5,857 bases of DNA, from the NCBI GenBank assembly GCA_902803365.1, contig CADCPU010000432.1, positions 1-5,857 of the forward strand, read 5' to 3'. The stretch comes from Oscillospiraceae bacterium. GTDB lineage: Bacteria; Bacillota_A; Clostridia; Saccharofermentanales; Saccharofermentanaceae. The notes beneath the pieces are model-generated. The model ran no database searches. It was not told the DNA's origin and was given only the letters and a program-made list of their open reading frames with translations. This document shows, one piece after another, positions 1,305 to 5,857 of this stretch. Numbering within the stretch: the first letter of the stretch is position 1; each line of letters starts with the position of its first letter. The position numbers were made by a program, and so were the translations under genes.

Positions 1305-2486
1305 ATGTCAAACGAAATGCAGCTTAAGTATGGTTGTAACCCAAATCAGAAGCCATCCAGGATCTTTATGGCTGACGGTAAGGACCTTCCGATCGAGGTA
1401 TTGAACGGCAAGCCGGGCTATATCAATCTCCTCGACGCTTTCAACGGATGGCAGCTCGTTAAGGAGCTCAAGAAGGCAACAGGTCTTCCTTCCGCTACAT
1501 CTTTTAAGCACGTATCTCCTGCAGGCGCTGCAGTAGGTAAGCCGCTCTCTGAGACAGAGGCAAAGATCTACTTCGTAGATGATCTCGGCGAGCTTTCTCC
1601 TATCGCTTGCGCATACGCTCGTGCCCGCGGCGCAGACAGAATGTCTTCCTACGGTGACTTCGTAGCATTGTCCGACACATGTGACGCCATCACAGCTACA
1701 ATGCTCGCAAGAGAAGTATCCGACGGTATCATCGCTCCGGGCTACACAGACGAGGCTCTCGAGATCCTCAAGACAAAGCGTAAGGGCACATATAACGTTA
1801 TCAAGATCGATGAGAACTACGTTCCTGCTCCTATCGAGACAAAGCAGGTTTACGGCGTAACATTCGAGCAGGGAAGAAACGAGCTCGACATCAACAAGGA
1901 TCTCCTCAACGAGATCGTTACTGATAACAAGGTAATCCCTGAGGACAAGAAGATCGACCTTCTTATCTCTCTCATCACATTGAAGTACACACAGAGTAAC
2001 TCAGTTTGCTACGTTAAGGACGGCCAGGCTATCGGTATCGGTGCAGGCCAGCAGTCCCGTATCCACTGCACACGTCTTGCAGGTAACAAGGCAGACAACT
2101 GGTGGCTCCGTCAGCATCCTAAGGTCATGGGCCTTCAGTTCGTAGACAACATCCGTCGTCCTGATCGTGACAATACGATCGACGTATACATCTCCGACGA
2201 GTACGAGGATGTCCTCGCAGAAGGCAGATGGCAGGAACTCTTCAAGGTTAAGCCTGAGGTCTTGACTGTTGAGGAGAAGAAAGAGTGGCTCAAGAAGAAC
2301 TTCGACGTATGTCTCGGTTCTGACGCATTCTTCCCATTCGGCGACAACATCGAGCGCGCTAAGAAGAGCGGCGTTAAGTACATCGCTGAGCCGGGCGGAT
2401 CCATCCGTGACGATCATGTCATCATGACATGCAACAAGTACGACATGGCTATGGCATTCACGGGCATCCGTCTTTTCCACCACTGA
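1305..2486 (+). CDS. purH: AICAR formyltransferase, stand-alone (PurH C-terminal domain only)
   Basis: Transfers a formyl group from 10-formyltetrahydrofolate to AICAR, giving FAICAR (step 9 of purine synthesis). The 393-residue protein is all transformylase: it begins QLKYGCNPNQ and has no MGS-like cyclohydrolase domain in front. Visible motifs are SFKHVSPAGAAVG with the catalytic Lys68-His69 pair, RARGADRMSSYGDF, SDGIIAPGY, QSNSVCY with Asn232, GAGQQSRIHCTRLAG, and the C-terminal GGSIRDD...FTGIRLFHH. Length, motifs and the RLFHH end match the C-terminal half of eukaryotic ATIC (human K266-H267, N431, 592 residues) better than the shorter E. coli-type domain, which has KHANPCG at the active site. 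The missing cyclohydrolase is supplied by purO just upstream. The name purV has also been used for stand-alone forms. Codon use is unusually biased (15 of 19 Thr codons are ACA), suggesting high expression. A terminator follows 22 bases after the stop. Confidence 0.95.
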   Translation: MSNEMQLKYGCNPNQKPSRIFMADGKDLPIEVLNGKPGYINLLDAFNGWQLVKELKKATGLPSATSFKHVSPAGAAVGKPLSETEAKIYFVDDLGELSPIACAYARARGADRMSSYGDFVALSDTCDAITATMLAREVSDGIIAPGYTDEALEILKTKRKGTYNVIKIDENYVPAPIETKQVYGVTFEQGRNELDINKDLLNEIVTDNKVIPEDKKIDLLISLITLKYTQSNSVCYVKDGQAIGIGAGQQSRIHCTRLAGNKADNWWLRQHPKVMGLQFVDNIRRPDRDNTIDVYISDEYEDVLAEGRWQELFKVKPEVLTVEEKKEWLKKNFDVCLGSDAFFPFGDNIERAKKSGVKYIAEPGGSIRDDHVIMTCNKYDMAMAFTGIRLFHH

Positions 2487-2507: not shown

Positions 2508-2534
2508 AAGGCCGCCTTCACGGGCGGCCTTTTT
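2508..2534 (+). terminator. Rho-independent terminator of the purine operon
   Basis: A perfect 9-bp stem, AAGGCCGCC (2508-2516) with GGCGGCCTT (2523-2531), has a six-base loop (TTCACG) and a run of five T (2530-2534). It lies 22 bases after the AICAR formyltransferase stop and separates the purine operon from the corA-tsaD unit. No convergent gene is present, so it serves the + strand. Confidence 0.93.
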
Positions 2535-2549
2535 CGCGCCCTGAATTTC

Positions 2550-2568
2550 TGTATCCAAAACGGATACA
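2550..2568. promoter_or_regulatory. Palindrome 1 of the array (possible operator or backup terminator)
   Basis: TGTATCC, spacer AAAAC, GGATACA: perfect 7-bp arms, but a less symmetric centre than copies 2 and 3. Six T (2572-2577) follow closely, so on the + strand it could also act as a weak second terminator behind the GC-rich one. Confidence 0.6.
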
Positions 2569-2591
2569 AAATTTTTTCGACCTGAAAATTT

Positions 2592-2608
2592 GTATCCAAG
2601 TTGGATAC
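2592..2608. promoter_or_regulatory. Palindrome 2 of the array (possible operator)
   Basis: GTATCCAA-G-TTGGATAC is a perfect inverted repeat with 8-bp arms around a single central base at 2600, the most symmetric of the three copies. The symmetry is what a homodimeric helix-turn-helix regulator would bind. No such regulator is encoded in the window. Confidence 0.65.
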
Positions 2609-2632
2609 TTTTGCGAAAAGACAACGGAAATC

Positions 2633-2651
2633 TGTATCCGAGTTGGATACA
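2633..2651. promoter_or_regulatory. Palindrome 3 of the array (possible operator closest to the corA promoter)
   Basis: TGTATCC, spacer GAGTT, GGATACA: perfect 7-bp arms centred at 2642. It ends 18 bases before the proposed -35 element. If transcription starts near 2705, the centre is at about -63, close to the classical position of an upstream activator rather than a repressor covering the promoter. Confidence 0.65.
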
Positions 2652-2669
2652 TTGGCGAGAAAGTAAGAG

Positions 2670-2698
2670 TAGATAAATCGTGCCGTGAATGGTACAAT
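2670..2698 (+). promoter_or_regulatory. Probable sigma-A-type promoter of the corA-tsaD-smpB unit
   Basis: An extended -10 element, TGG-TACAAT (-10 hexamer 2693-2698, TG at 2690-2691), is preceded at 17 bases by TAGATA (2670-2675), which matches four of six bases of TTGACA. Transcription would start near 2705, leaving a leader of about 40 bases before the corA ATG. This is a motif match only; the weak -35 fits a promoter helped by an activator. Confidence 0.55.
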
Positions 2699-2744: not shown

Positions 2745-3728
2745 ATGCTTGAAATCTACAAATCCAAGGACGTAGCGCTTACAGCCTCAAAACATGTCAA
2801 CAAGACTGAACGCATTGAGAATATCAGTGAAGATTCATGGATCAACTTATATGCCCCTACGGAAGAAGAGATCGCCAAGGTTGAGAATGAACTCAACATC
2901 CCGCAGGAGTTTCTGAGATATCCTTTGGACGAAGAAGAGAGACCTCGTATCGACTTTGATGATGATACGGGTGATGTTCTCGTCATCGTTGACATCCCGT
3001 ACCCGAGACACGAGAACAACGTCGTCAAGTACGAGACGGCTCCTTTGGGAATCATCATATCCAAAAAGCACATCCTGACAGTATCCCTCCGCAAGGTGCC
3101 GATACTCGATCAGTTTATCGATAATCGCGTCAGAGACTGCATCGTGGCTTACAGAACGAGATTCACGATCCAGATCCTTTTCGCGATCGCCAAAGACTAC
3201 TTGAGACTCTTGCGCTTCATGGACAAGAGCCTTGAGGAGGCCGAGAAGGGCCTCGCGAAGTCGATCAGCAACAGTGACCTCTACAAGATGCTTGAATGGG
3301 GTAAGTCATTGATCTACTTCTCGACATCCTTGAAGTCTAACGAAGCCGTGCTCGAAAAACTCATGCGCGGTCGTCTCGTAAAGCAGTACGAGGAAGACGA
3401 AGACCTTCTCGAGGACGTTATCATCGAGTACAAGCAGGCTCATGAGATGGCGGACATCTATGCGTCGATCGTTAACGGAACGATGGATGCTTATGCGTCT
3501 ATCATCAACAACAACATGAACGTTATCATGAAGATCCTGGCAGCAGCTACGATCGTTTTGACCGTTCCGAACCTCTTTACGAGCTTCTTCGGACAGAATA
3601 TCCCGTTCCCATGGGACCCGAATGCGGATTTTGCGAGCAATCCGTGGCCTTTCTGCATCCTTACGGGCCTTTGCATCGTAAGTATGGTGATCTCGTTCAT
3701 TATCATGAAGAAAAAGGATTTCCTCTGA
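2745..3728 (+). CDS. corA: CorA-family divalent metal ion transporter with GQN in place of GMN
   Basis: A 327-residue protein of the CorA Mg2+/Co2+ channel family, which forms homopentamers in the cytoplasmic membrane. The N-terminal part (about residues 1-135) is the acidic cytosolic domain. A long helical region (about 140-260) corresponds to the stalk helix, leading into TM1 (about 260-282, MNVIMKILAAATIVLTVPNL). A short outside loop and TM2 (about 302-321) follow, with the basic tail KKKDFL. This layout and the C-terminal placement of both membrane helices are typical of CorA. The signature GMN at the pore mouth is replaced by Gly283-Gln284-Asn285 in SFFGQNIPFP. The short loop contains Asp291 and Asp295. 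It is the first gene of its unit, with a perfect ribosome binding site and a palindrome array upstream. The family is clear; the ion carried is not, since natural GMN variants may differ in substrate. No M-box or other riboswitch fits in its short leader. Confidence 0.88.
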   Translation: MLEIYKSKDVALTASKHVNKTERIENISEDSWINLYAPTEEEIAKVENELNIPQEFLRYPLDEEERPRIDFDDDTGDVLVIVDIPYPRHENNVVKYETAPLGIIISKKHILTVSLRKVPILDQFIDNRVRDCIVAYRTRFTIQILFAIAKDYLRLLRFMDKSLEEAEKGLAKSISNSDLYKMLEWGKSLIYFSTSLKSNEAVLEKLMRGRLVKQYEEDEDLLEDVIIEYKQAHEMADIYASIVNGTMDAYASIINNNMNVIMKILAAATIVLTVPNLFTSFFGQNIPFPWDPNADFASNPWPFCILTGLCIVSMVISFIIMKKKDFL

Positions 3729-3729
3729 T

Positions 3730-4749
3730 ATGGCAGATTTCTTATACAAAGAAAAAGGGCAGTCGAGACCGCTTGGTAAGCTTGTCATGAGGCTTGCGCT
3801 CGTTCTGAGTATCATTGCCGCGATCGGTATCTTCTTTATCGTACTCACGGTCTATTCATCCAATAAGCTCATGAGCGTCGAAAGCGAGAGCATATCCAAC
3901 ATTCCTTCGAATGTCCTGCCGTCCTATTCGACCTGTTCGTTCGAGTCTTTCGACGAGCAGACGAACCTGTCCGGCTGGCTCTTCAAATGCGACGACCCGA
4001 TAAGTACGATAATCGTTGTCCATAACACAGGTTCCAACAGATTGCCGTTCGGTGTCGACATGGTCGACCTTGTTGAACTCTGGCTCGATAACCACTATAA
4101 TGTCTTTCTCTTCGATCTTCGTAATTCGGGCGAATCAGAGGGCGATATCTCAGGATACGGATATCTCGAATGGCAGGATGTTATAGGCGCGATCGCTCAG
4201 GTAAGGATGATCTCCGTTACGACTGATGTTATCCTTTACGGTATCGGTTCGGGCTGTACATCGTGCTGTATGGCATATTCCAAGCTTCCGGATGCAAACC
4301 TTACGGAGTCCGAGAGGGAGAGATTGTCTGACAAGTATCTGCAGCTCGGCTTTGACAGAAGTTATATATCCGGTATGATATTTGACTCGCCGGCCAATAC
4401 CAGCGATGATTATATCGAGCCTATCGTTGAGCAGAACGAATTCTTGGGTAAGATCACGAAGAACTTCGTACCTTACGCTATCAGGTTTTCGGCAGGTGAA
4501 GATACATCTTACAATATCGCGGCTGAGGTATCTCGTATGCCGATCCCGATCTGCATCCTCTACGGCGGACACGACGTCTTCGTCGGTGCGGATAAGATCA
4601 GCAGGCTTGTAGACAACAGAAACAGGCTCAACAGCAACATCACTGAATCGCTGATGATCCCGGGTGCAGGCTACCTTGAGGCCTTCGAGACGGATACGAC
4701 CGCGTACTGTGATGAGATAATGACATTTTTGCATACTTATTTCGGGTGA
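3730..4749 (+). CDS. Membrane-anchored alpha/beta-hydrolase-fold protein, probably catalytically inactive
   Basis: A 339-residue protein starting one base after the corA stop; a weak AAGGA (3714-3718) and translational coupling probably serve its start. A basic N-terminus (K7, K9, R13, K17, R21) is followed by one membrane helix (about 22-42), so the rest should face outside. The fold of alpha/beta hydrolases (S33/YqkD-like) is recognisable: LSGWLFKC (80-87), IIVVHNTGSNR ending at R104, FDLRNSGESEG (from F128), the nucleophile elbow LYGIGSG (G171-G175), and LYGGHDVFV with the presumed acid Asp282. The catalytic positions are unusual. The elbow Gly-X-Ser-X-Gly reads G-I-G-S-G, with Gly173 where serine belongs, and the usual GAGH motif near the end reads GAGY, with Tyr315 in place of histidine. 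Cysteines at 176, 179 and 180 follow the elbow. I infer a pseudo-enzyme or a binding, scaffold or sensor role. Ser174 acting in a shifted elbow cannot be excluded. The specific function is unknown. Confidence 0.8.
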   Translation: MADFLYKEKGQSRPLGKLVMRLALVLSIIAAIGIFFIVLTVYSSNKLMSVESESISNIPSNVLPSYSTCSFESFDEQTNLSGWLFKCDDPISTIIVVHNTGSNRLPFGVDMVDLVELWLDNHYNVFLFDLRNSGESEGDISGYGYLEWQDVIGAIAQVRMISVTTDVILYGIGSGCTSCCMAYSKLPDANLTESERERLSDKYLQLGFDRSYISGMIFDSPANTSDDYIEPIVEQNEFLGKITKNFVPYAIRFSAGEDTSYNIAAEVSRMPIPICILYGGHDVFVGADKISRLVDNRNRLNSNITESLMIPGAGYLEAFETDTTAYCDEIMTFLHTYFG

Positions 4750-4753: not shown

Positions 4754-5770
4754 ATGGAACAGAAGAAAGACGTAATCATACTTGGCATCGAATCCTCATG
4801 TGACGAGACCGCTTGCGCTGTCGTAAAGAACGGCCGCGAGATCATGAGCAACGTTATCGCGTCCCAGGCCGATTTCCACGAGAAGTACGGCGGAGTCGTG
4901 CCGGAGCTTGCGTCCAGAATGCATGTCGATGCGATAAGCCCGACTATTGCAGAGGCTCTTAAAGTCGCAGACGTTACTGTAAAAGATCTCGATGCAATCG
5001 CGGTCACATACGGTCCGGGCCTCGTCGGAGCGCTCCTCGTAGGCGTTTCAGCAGCCAAGGGAATGGCTTTTGCATCCGGTAAGCCTCTTGTCGGCGTTAA
5101 CCACATGCACGGCCACATCGCGGCAAACTATATCTGTCACAAAGATCTCGAGCCTCCGTTCCTCTGTCTTTCCGTCAGCGGCGGTCACAGCGAGATCGTT
5201 CTCGTCCGCGACTATTGCGACATGGAGATCCTCGGCTGCACCCGTGACGATGCGGCAGGTGAGGCGATCGACAAGATCGCGCGTGTAATAGGACTCGGAT
5301 ATCCGGGCGGACCTAAGATGGATAAAGCCGGCCGCGGCGGAGATGTTAACGCATATTCGTTTTCGAAAACACATATGAAGGACACCTTGGACTTTTCGTT
5401 CAGCGGCATCAAAACGAGCGCCCTGAATCAATTGAACGAACTTCGTATGCGCGGCGCGGAACTTGATCTTGCAGGCTTCTGCGCATCCTATCAGCAGCAT
5501 ATCAGCAACGAACTTGTAGGTAACACGATACTCGCGGTCAAGCAGACGGGTATCAAGAAAGTCTGCCTCGCAGGCGGTGTAAGCGCGAACTCATTCCTGC
5601 GCGCGACGATCGACCAGGCAGCTCAGCGCCACAAGTTCCGGGTTTTCTATCCGAGACTCGACCTGTGCACGGATAATGGTGCAATGATCGCGTCAGCGGG
5701 GTATTATGATTATATGGAAGGAGTAAGACACGGTCTCGACCTCAATGCGGTCCCGTCGTTGTCTTTATGA
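4754..5770 (+). CDS. tsaD: tRNA N6-adenosine threonylcarbamoyltransferase TsaD
   Basis: TsaD (Gcp/YgjD/Kae1 family) transfers the threonylcarbamoyl group from threonylcarbamoyl-AMP to A37 of tRNAs that read ANN codons, forming t6A, together with TsaB and TsaE in bacteria. The 338-residue length matches E. coli TsaD (337). The ASKHA-type fold is shown by ILGIESSCDETA near the N-terminus, YGPGLVGALLVG, VSGGHSE and LAGGVSANSFLR. Metal-binding His117 and His121 lie in NHMHGHIAA, and the third ligand Asp307 in TDNGAMIA, equivalent to H111, H115 and D300 of E. coli. All key residues are present, so it should be active. It is cytosolic, with no signal peptide. It starts four bases after the hydrolase-like gene and ends four bases before smpB, so it is inside an operon. 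TsaB and TsaE are not in this window. Confidence 0.97.
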   Translation: MEQKKDVIILGIESSCDETACAVVKNGREIMSNVIASQADFHEKYGGVVPELASRMHVDAISPTIAEALKVADVTVKDLDAIAVTYGPGLVGALLVGVSAAKGMAFASGKPLVGVNHMHGHIAANYICHKDLEPPFLCLSVSGGHSEIVLVRDYCDMEILGCTRDDAAGEAIDKIARVIGLGYPGGPKMDKAGRGGDVNAYSFSKTHMKDTLDFSFSGIKTSALNQLNELRMRGAELDLAGFCASYQQHISNELVGNTILAVKQTGIKKVCLAGGVSANSFLRATIDQAAQRHKFRVFYPRLDLCTDNGAMIASAGYYDYMEGVRHGLDLNAVPSLSL

Positions 5771-5774
5771 CTAT

Positions 5775-5857
5775 ATGGCAATTGTTAAAGGAATAAAGGT
5801 AGTCGCAGACAACCGCAAGGCTTTCCACGACTATTTCATAGAAGAAAAATTCGAGTG
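5775..5857 (+). CDS. smpB: SsrA-binding protein SmpB (3' end missing)
   Basis: SmpB binds tmRNA (SsrA) and brings it to stalled ribosomes for trans-translation. Only 27 residues are in the window, starting MAIVKGIKVVADNRKA and continuing HDYFIEEKFE. They match the conserved SmpB N-terminus, with VxxNRKAxHDYFIEExxE as in Bacillus SmpB (QNKKANHDYFIEETYE). The start at ATG 5775 is four bases after the tsaD stop. No GGAGG-like sequence precedes it, so translation probably depends on coupling with tsaD. An overlapping ATGA at 5767-5770 is in another frame that soon stops. The rest of the gene, and any downstream ssrA, lie beyond the window. Identification is good despite the short length. Confidence 0.88.
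   Translation, partial: MAIVKGIKVVADNRKAFHDYFIEEKFE

Follow-up and report, generated by a model that had tools for sequence, protein, structure and literature searches.

The window, by which we mean the whole 5,857-nucleotide stretch of DNA analyzed here, carries an array of three GTATCC-N5-GGATAC palindromes between a purH-like gene and a cluster that begins with corA. The features of the locus are as follows, with no strand assigned to the array or the palindromes.

1308..2486, + strand: purH-like AICARFT gene (Pfam AICARFT_IMPCHas), upstream of the array
2508..2534, + strand: probable purH terminator, a GC-rich hairpin and T run just 5' of the array (fold of 2487-2744 and reading of the sequence)
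2543..2663: full array including diverged flanking similarity (repeat comparison; edges approximate, the right edge being where the resemblance between units 2 and 3 ends)
2551..2567: palindrome 1, GTATCC-AAAAC-GGATAC, exact match, center 2559
2592..2608: palindrome 2, GTATCC-AAGTT-GGATAC, exact match, center 2600
2634..2650: palindrome 3, GTATCC-GAGTT-GGATAC, exact match, center 2642
2670..2698, + strand: predicted core promoter of corA, TAGATA-17-TACAAT plus a TG ahead of the -10 (promoter scan and alignment with 14 relatives)
2745..3728, + strand: corA, CorA-like Mg2+ transporter, the first gene 3' of the array (Pfam CorA, 2.6e-52)
3730..4749, + strand: alpha/beta-hydrolase-like gene (no Pfam match, fold assigned by eye; adjoins corA in relatives)
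4754..5770, + strand: tsaD (Pfam TsaD, 1.6e-92)
5775..5857, + strand: start of a gene that we take to be smpB, truncated at the end of the window (identified by eye; 27 residues, no Pfam match)

Five window genes were tested with Pfam, and neither a regulator nor a transposase was found among them. The hairpin at 2508-2534 was not listed by the terminator scan, probably because its T run is partly paired in the stem. The predicted corA promoter has 9 of 12 consensus matches, and 0.6 promoter-like sites are expected in shuffled sequence. On the minus strand, the palindromes also lie within an open frame of 261 codons that is antisense to purH.

The initial annotation described three palindromes about four helical turns apart, and all three are exact, with center-to-center steps of 41 and 42 bases. 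Each unit consists of a 17-bp palindrome and a 24- to 25-bp spacer, and the GC content of the array is 0.36. The contrast that it drew between invariant arms and diverged surroundings is likewise borne out. The arms are identical at 12/12 positions in each of the three unit pairs, whereas non-arm identity is 28% for units 1 and 2, 21% for units 1 and 3, and 55% for units 2 and 3 (41-base frame from the palindrome start); in a 42-base frame placed 8 bases further left, units 2 and 3 agree at 32/42 positions and differ at 10. The probability that all differences would miss the arms is 0.0003 for units 1 and 2 and, depending on the frame, 0.003 to 0.02 for units 2 and 3, in frames that were picked post hoc with the data already seen.

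The array did not arise by chance: among 400 first-order Markov resamples of the window, none had even two palindromes with the same 6-base arms and the same loop length (3 to 9) within 130 bases. What stands out is the cluster of three exact copies and not loose matches; with up to three mismatches allowed, the window has five matches where shuffled sequences average 1.91, and five were reached in 9 of 200 shuffles. In layout, the array corresponds to a general tandem palindromic intergenic repeat, with head-to-tail palindromic units at a near-constant step between purH and corA. Similarity extends into the flanks (10/16 positions to the left of units 1 and 2 and 12/24 to the right of units 2 and 3), which suggests an ancient tandem duplication of the units. 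If so, the regular spacing is not independent evidence for selection on helical phase. Tandem Repeats Finder, with scores down to 30, did not report the array, indicating that the units are too diverged for an ordinary tandem repeat, and an Rfam scan of the window gave no match at the gathering score.

As the initial annotation had it, the array lies upstream of a transcript carrying tsaD and smpB, just 5' of the predicted promoter of corA, the hydrolase-like gene, and tsaD, with the gene named smpB by eye coming next. Palindrome 3 ends 19 bases before the -35 element. Relative to a start predicted near 2705 from the position of the -10, the centers would lie at about -63, -105, and -146. This is outside the core promoter, so any operator role would be upstream activation, looping, or silencing rather than the blocking of polymerase. 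An operator array, in which each site is occupied by a dimeric regulator and the three dimers bind cooperatively along one face of the DNA, was what the annotation proposed to be under selection, and we regard it as possible, while leaning against it. The perfect arms beside diverged spacers of near-chance identity, the 41- and 42-base steps, and the position just upstream of a conserved corA promoter all speak for it, but no regulator was found among the five window genes tested, and placing a lineage-new regulator over a housekeeping promoter is a costly assumption. Its fuller form, in which an undescribed, lineage-new dimeric regulator binds three cooperative sites at four helical turns as an upstream activator or silencer of a transcript for Mg2+ transport, tRNA modification (tsaD), and ribosome rescue (smpB), is rather unlikely. 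If the array is an operator, an as yet unnamed regulator would tie Mg2+ uptake to tsaD and smpB.

The units might instead act as RNA, forming hairpins in a transcript that reads past the purH terminator and thereby lowering read-through from purH to corA. The region from 2487 to 2744 folds well (z of -6.9), and the terminator scan listed two units as terminator-like, unit 1 in the + orientation and unit 3 in the - orientation. However, part of the fold score comes from the GC-rich terminator of purH and from the pairing of one unit with another. Units 1 and 3 each have a 7-pair stem with 3 G-C pairs, and unit 2 was not listed. The invariant arms also offer no compensatory change in favor of RNA pairing, and there are three units only. 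We consider such an insulator improbable.

A CorA match was found in 158 of 391 genomes of a class sample and then in 38 of the 85 genomes in the genus of the best match, G330. Among at least 120 CorA matches, the named ones include records from Saccharofermentans, Clostridia, Oscillospiraceae, and Ruminococcaceae, which suggests a Saccharofermentans-like host. We examined the corA loci of 30 of these 38 genomes (the other 8 were not fetched, and 47 of the 85 had no CorA match), and as loci from metagenome-assembled genomes, some may be cut short. The array is absent from all 30, including the five closest (L052 to L055 and L015, with CorA identities of 87 to 91%, or 86 to 90% in our tblastn comparison), and none has a palindrome with fewer than two arm mismatches. 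The absence extends well beyond corA: the pattern of one full site and, at the expected distance after it, a half site matches 0/115 genomes of the family, and a pair of sites whose arms are one base shorter matches 0/188 genomes of the order. Conservation of the array and its spacing upstream of corA orthologs, which the initial annotation had put forward as a check, is thus not seen in these relatives, none of which has purH upstream of corA, and this counts against the operator.

The genes 3' of the array keep their order, since corA, the hydrolase-like gene, and tsaD are together in 29 of the 30 genus loci and the remaining one, L052, ends before tsaD. In two corA loci from outside the genus (L021 and L022), tsaD is not beside corA in the available DNA. 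The genes purN, purO, and purH are adjacent in all five purH loci, and purH lies upstream of corA in 0 of 32 corA loci. The purH-corA junction of the window was found in none of the 37 loci compared, so this neighborhood is particular to the window in this set, and the array sits at the join. In L052, which stands for the close loci, the gene upstream of corA is a DUF3656 gene, read as a U32-type peptidase; in L016, a dUTPase precedes corA and is itself preceded by a gene resembling that of L052. Other upstream genes were named by eye. On the 3' side of purH, relatives have a purD-like start (L076 and L080, by eye) or a C39-peptidase-like gene (L079 by Pfam, L077 and L078 by eye).

The corA promoter is recognizable in all 14 relatives aligned, which represent 14 of the 30 genus loci and lack the array; it has a GTRG-like -35, a TAnAAT -10, and, in 13 of the 14, TG before the -10. 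This suggests that the array is dispensable for corA expression across the genus, and it would then have been added to a promoter that functions in other genomes in its absence. In the relatives read, the gene upstream of corA stops near the -35, which leaves no space for an array.

A junction that is unique among the loci compared, with the array exactly at it, could also mark an assembly chimera or artifact in which two operons of one species were joined via a repeat. Against this, coding GC (0.48 to 0.54) and GC3 (0.61 to 0.66) are alike on both sides of the array, and PurN, PurO, and the corA cluster share their nearest relatives (G462, G465, and G419), although PurH itself is closest to G242. 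We consider a chimera very improbable, and the palindromes would be real either way. For the window PurH (1308-2486), identity to the G242 protein is 97%, while CorA reaches only 72% in the same comparison. Among the relatives closest by CorA, PurH identity is 93 to 94% in G465, G419, and G462 and 74% in G330, and G436 has no match. This uneven kinship of PurH and CorA suggests gene exchange.

Single copies of the site are more frequent than in a reversed control, with 27 exact sites in 20 of 85 genus genomes against 12 and, in the five closest genomes, 70 near-sites (one base longer, two mismatches at most) against 22. These excesses favor the operator and, as far as they go, count against a repeat, but part of them is probably to be expected because the reversed control contains TAG, a triplet avoided in coding DNA. 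Where the initial annotation looked to sites clustered at a gene set or a regulator gene, the exact single sites inspected show no intergenic regulon. All 25 (24 of the 27 genus sites and one from outside the genus) lie inside open frames of at least 121 codons, and so do 14 of the 15 near-sites inspected among the 70, in frames of at least 131 codons; the other is a terminator-like hairpin. This open-frame test is imperfect, as the window's own array sites also fall in a 261-codon open frame. Hence the sites, their arm conservation, their spacing, and their position stand as first described, while the checks on relatives and single sites gave the proposed regulator no support. To our knowledge, GTATCC-N5-GGATAC matches no described operator. 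A literature search on the letters of the motif gave no paper on such an operator among the matches listed, nor did the listed matches describe such arrays in Saccharofermentans.

The exact tandem pattern was found in ten stretches among species-representative contigs, none of them named as belonging to the clade of the window and six of them from Paenibacillus taihuensis. In that species, exact sites number 23, and the reversed control gives 1. With two arm mismatches allowed, the six stretches (L001 to L004, L009, and L010) form a dispersed series of arrays with 3 to 8 units each at steps of 51 bases (one of 52). As in the window, these are tandem units with GTATCC/GGATAC arms, a constant step, and drifted spacers; mean non-arm identity is 46 to 84%, with single pairs down to 31%, and the identity of the arms is biased upward because the arrays were selected by an exact-arm pattern. 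They differ from the window array in that the core mostly prolongs the palindrome (CCTCAGG-like), the step is 51 rather than 41 to 42, and the loci are many, and three of the six arrays overlap open frames of at least 120 codons. The likeness in sequence to the window array is probably due to chance. The palindrome also recurs at 33-bp steps in L005, L006, and L008 (genome scan) and in three of four contigs from a viral scan (L011 to L013), where L012 has the same sequence as L005 in the repeat region. We rejected these repeats as unrelated to the window array; in L005, L006, and L011 to L013 the repeat appears by eye to be coding. Half sites that are GTATAC-like or GTATCC-like lie between the palindromes of these five, three of which are viral contigs, and the repeats could be iterons in a replication gene.

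Within 2.33 Mb from parts of nine genus genomes, a scan for same-arm palindromes found no array with the arms of the window or with a step of 41 to 42. Pairs with any arm sequence numbered 11 against 2 in a Markov control, and they include three period-72 arrays on one contig of G459; the places in this genome are L246 11895-12090, L252 13435-13702, and L241 about 270-395. A covariance model (R1) was built from six 72-bp units and matches 14/85 genus genomes at E <= 0.001, three of these by one match only, in a scan with strict filters that scored part of the candidates. G459 has 55 matches with both strands counted, and the family is found in 13 further genus genomes (L255 to L267, L269 to L277, L279, and L280). 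L241 was assigned to the family by eye, as R1 has no match there. The units have double, nested stems and occur in tandem at dispersed places, with 1 to 4 units per place and a period of 72, or 73 in G445 and 60 at one place in G444. Across the matched unit, 19 of the 27 loci retrieved have no open frame of at least 120 codons and 8 do, with some overlap among the loci; some arrays lie directly 3' of terminators, by eye.

The stems of this family covary: two-sided changes number 180, compared with 61.8 after shuffling, and the paired fraction of cells is 89.6%, where shuffling gives 78.8% and sliding no more than 54.7%. These numbers favor the model because both strands of near-palindromes are counted and the alignment was fitted to R1. 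Within two 72-bp arrays, stem identity is 87 to 89%, against 62 to 68% for the rest. L246 and L252 have no Rfam match at the gathering score except a tRNA. The family resembles the window array in its tandem palindromic units, which are mostly outside long open frames and sometimes follow a terminator, and in being present in part of the genus only; it differs in having two nested covarying stems and a period of 72. With filters off, the best R1 score in the window is 5.9 bits and is not in the array, and no match to the family was reported in the five closest relatives. The 72-bp family therefore provides a precedent and not a membership. It may deserve more attention than the window array itself. 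At three places (L246 11895-12090, L270 1429-1552, and L272 1501-1552), 3, 2, and 1 units, respectively, lie 5' of what is apparently the same small gene (start MPH-EIKCYPGR by eye); the stem sequences differ among these places, and the arms seem to change jointly within a place.

Published intergenic repeats offer partial parallels. The STAR elements of Staphylococcus are short conserved motifs in direct intergenic repeats with recurring spacers of at least 40 bp, their copy number and presence vary by lineage, and no function is given for them there (PMC3532100). As characterized there, they have a 14-bp GC-rich consensus at many staphylococcal loci, whereas the window has a 17-bp palindrome of unrelated sequence, 24- to 25-bp spacers, and one known locus; compared by eye, the array does not follow the consensus T(G/A/T)TGTTG(G/T)GGCCC(C/A) (PMC3532100). 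REP and BIME elements, which are associated with RAYT transposases, are extragenic hairpin-capable palindromes in regularly spaced clusters, as is the array, but by eye the latter lacks the 5'-GT(A/G)G head and subsequent GC-rich palindrome of such elements, its arms are not GC-rich (array GC, 0.36), and no transposase was found among the window genes tested (PMC2817692). On the operator side, a study of IclR-family regulators reports tandem sites three to four DNA turns apart as overrepresented, though less so than sites two turns apart (PMC8222616). The IclR-type operators described there share with the window palindromic sites, whole-turn spacing, and a position upstream of the promoter (PMC8222616), but for the array no regulator was found, no regulon appeared in the relatives searched, and the motif is unmatched. 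The operator of a conserved regulator would be kept upstream of orthologs, and the site was found in 0/30 corA loci and the tandem pattern in 0/115 family genomes.

We favor, with slightly less than even confidence, a reading of the array as a short tandem palindromic intergenic repeat restricted to its lineage rather than as a new operator array. The repeat would have come to lie at the join of two gene clusters that are apart in the compared relatives, between the purH terminator and the corA promoter, and its unit of palindrome and spacer probably multiplied through tandem duplication. The arms may have stayed fixed while the spacers drifted because they are read by a dimeric or hairpin-recognizing protein, either repeat handling or nucleoid associated; alternatively, units may have been copied from other family members. 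Such a repeat would not serve as a dedicated switch for corA. Further copies in the same genome, a mode of spread, and a binding protein are presumed parts of this model.

This repeat reading draws on the absence of the array from the 30 genus corA loci and of the tandem patterns from the family and order genomes, on the lack of any stretch named as the window's clade among the ten from species-representative contigs, on the junction that is new among the loci compared, and on a corA core promoter that is recognizable without the array. The 72-bp arrays of the same genus and the 51-bp arrays of P. taihuensis carry a similar signature, although in the latter the arm identity is partly built in and half of the arrays overlap open frames. 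Other observations weigh against a repeat. One array copy is known, the 2.33 Mb from nine genus genomes contains neither these arms nor the 41- to 42-base step, and the array fails the 72-bp model in period and stem design, that family having no reported match in the five closest relatives. The window spacers (21 to 55% identity) are more diverged than those of most comparison arrays, yet the arms are perfect, a combination that fits binding sites, and the last palindrome, 19 bases before the -35, is in a place open to a regulator array. If the array is a repeat, perfect arms, drifted spacers, and whole-turn spacing in one sequence do not alone indicate an operator.

BLAST searches with the array gave candidates that we rejected. 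Among the genus genomes, 46 of 85 have matches at E <= 1, with a best per-genome E value of 0.012, and the 12 loci inspected have no exact palindrome; plasmid and phage searches returned short pieces only (10 to 12% of the query, E of 0.2 to 0.8). Weak matches to spacer 2 of the array lie in a palindromic element found at L103 1470-1570 (G447) and L109 1460-1580 (G399). This element is outside long open frames and has inner arms resembling AAAAGTTGACTTTT..AAAAGTCAACTTTT, and the copy in L103 has additional outer arms, GCGGCCA..TGGCCGC.
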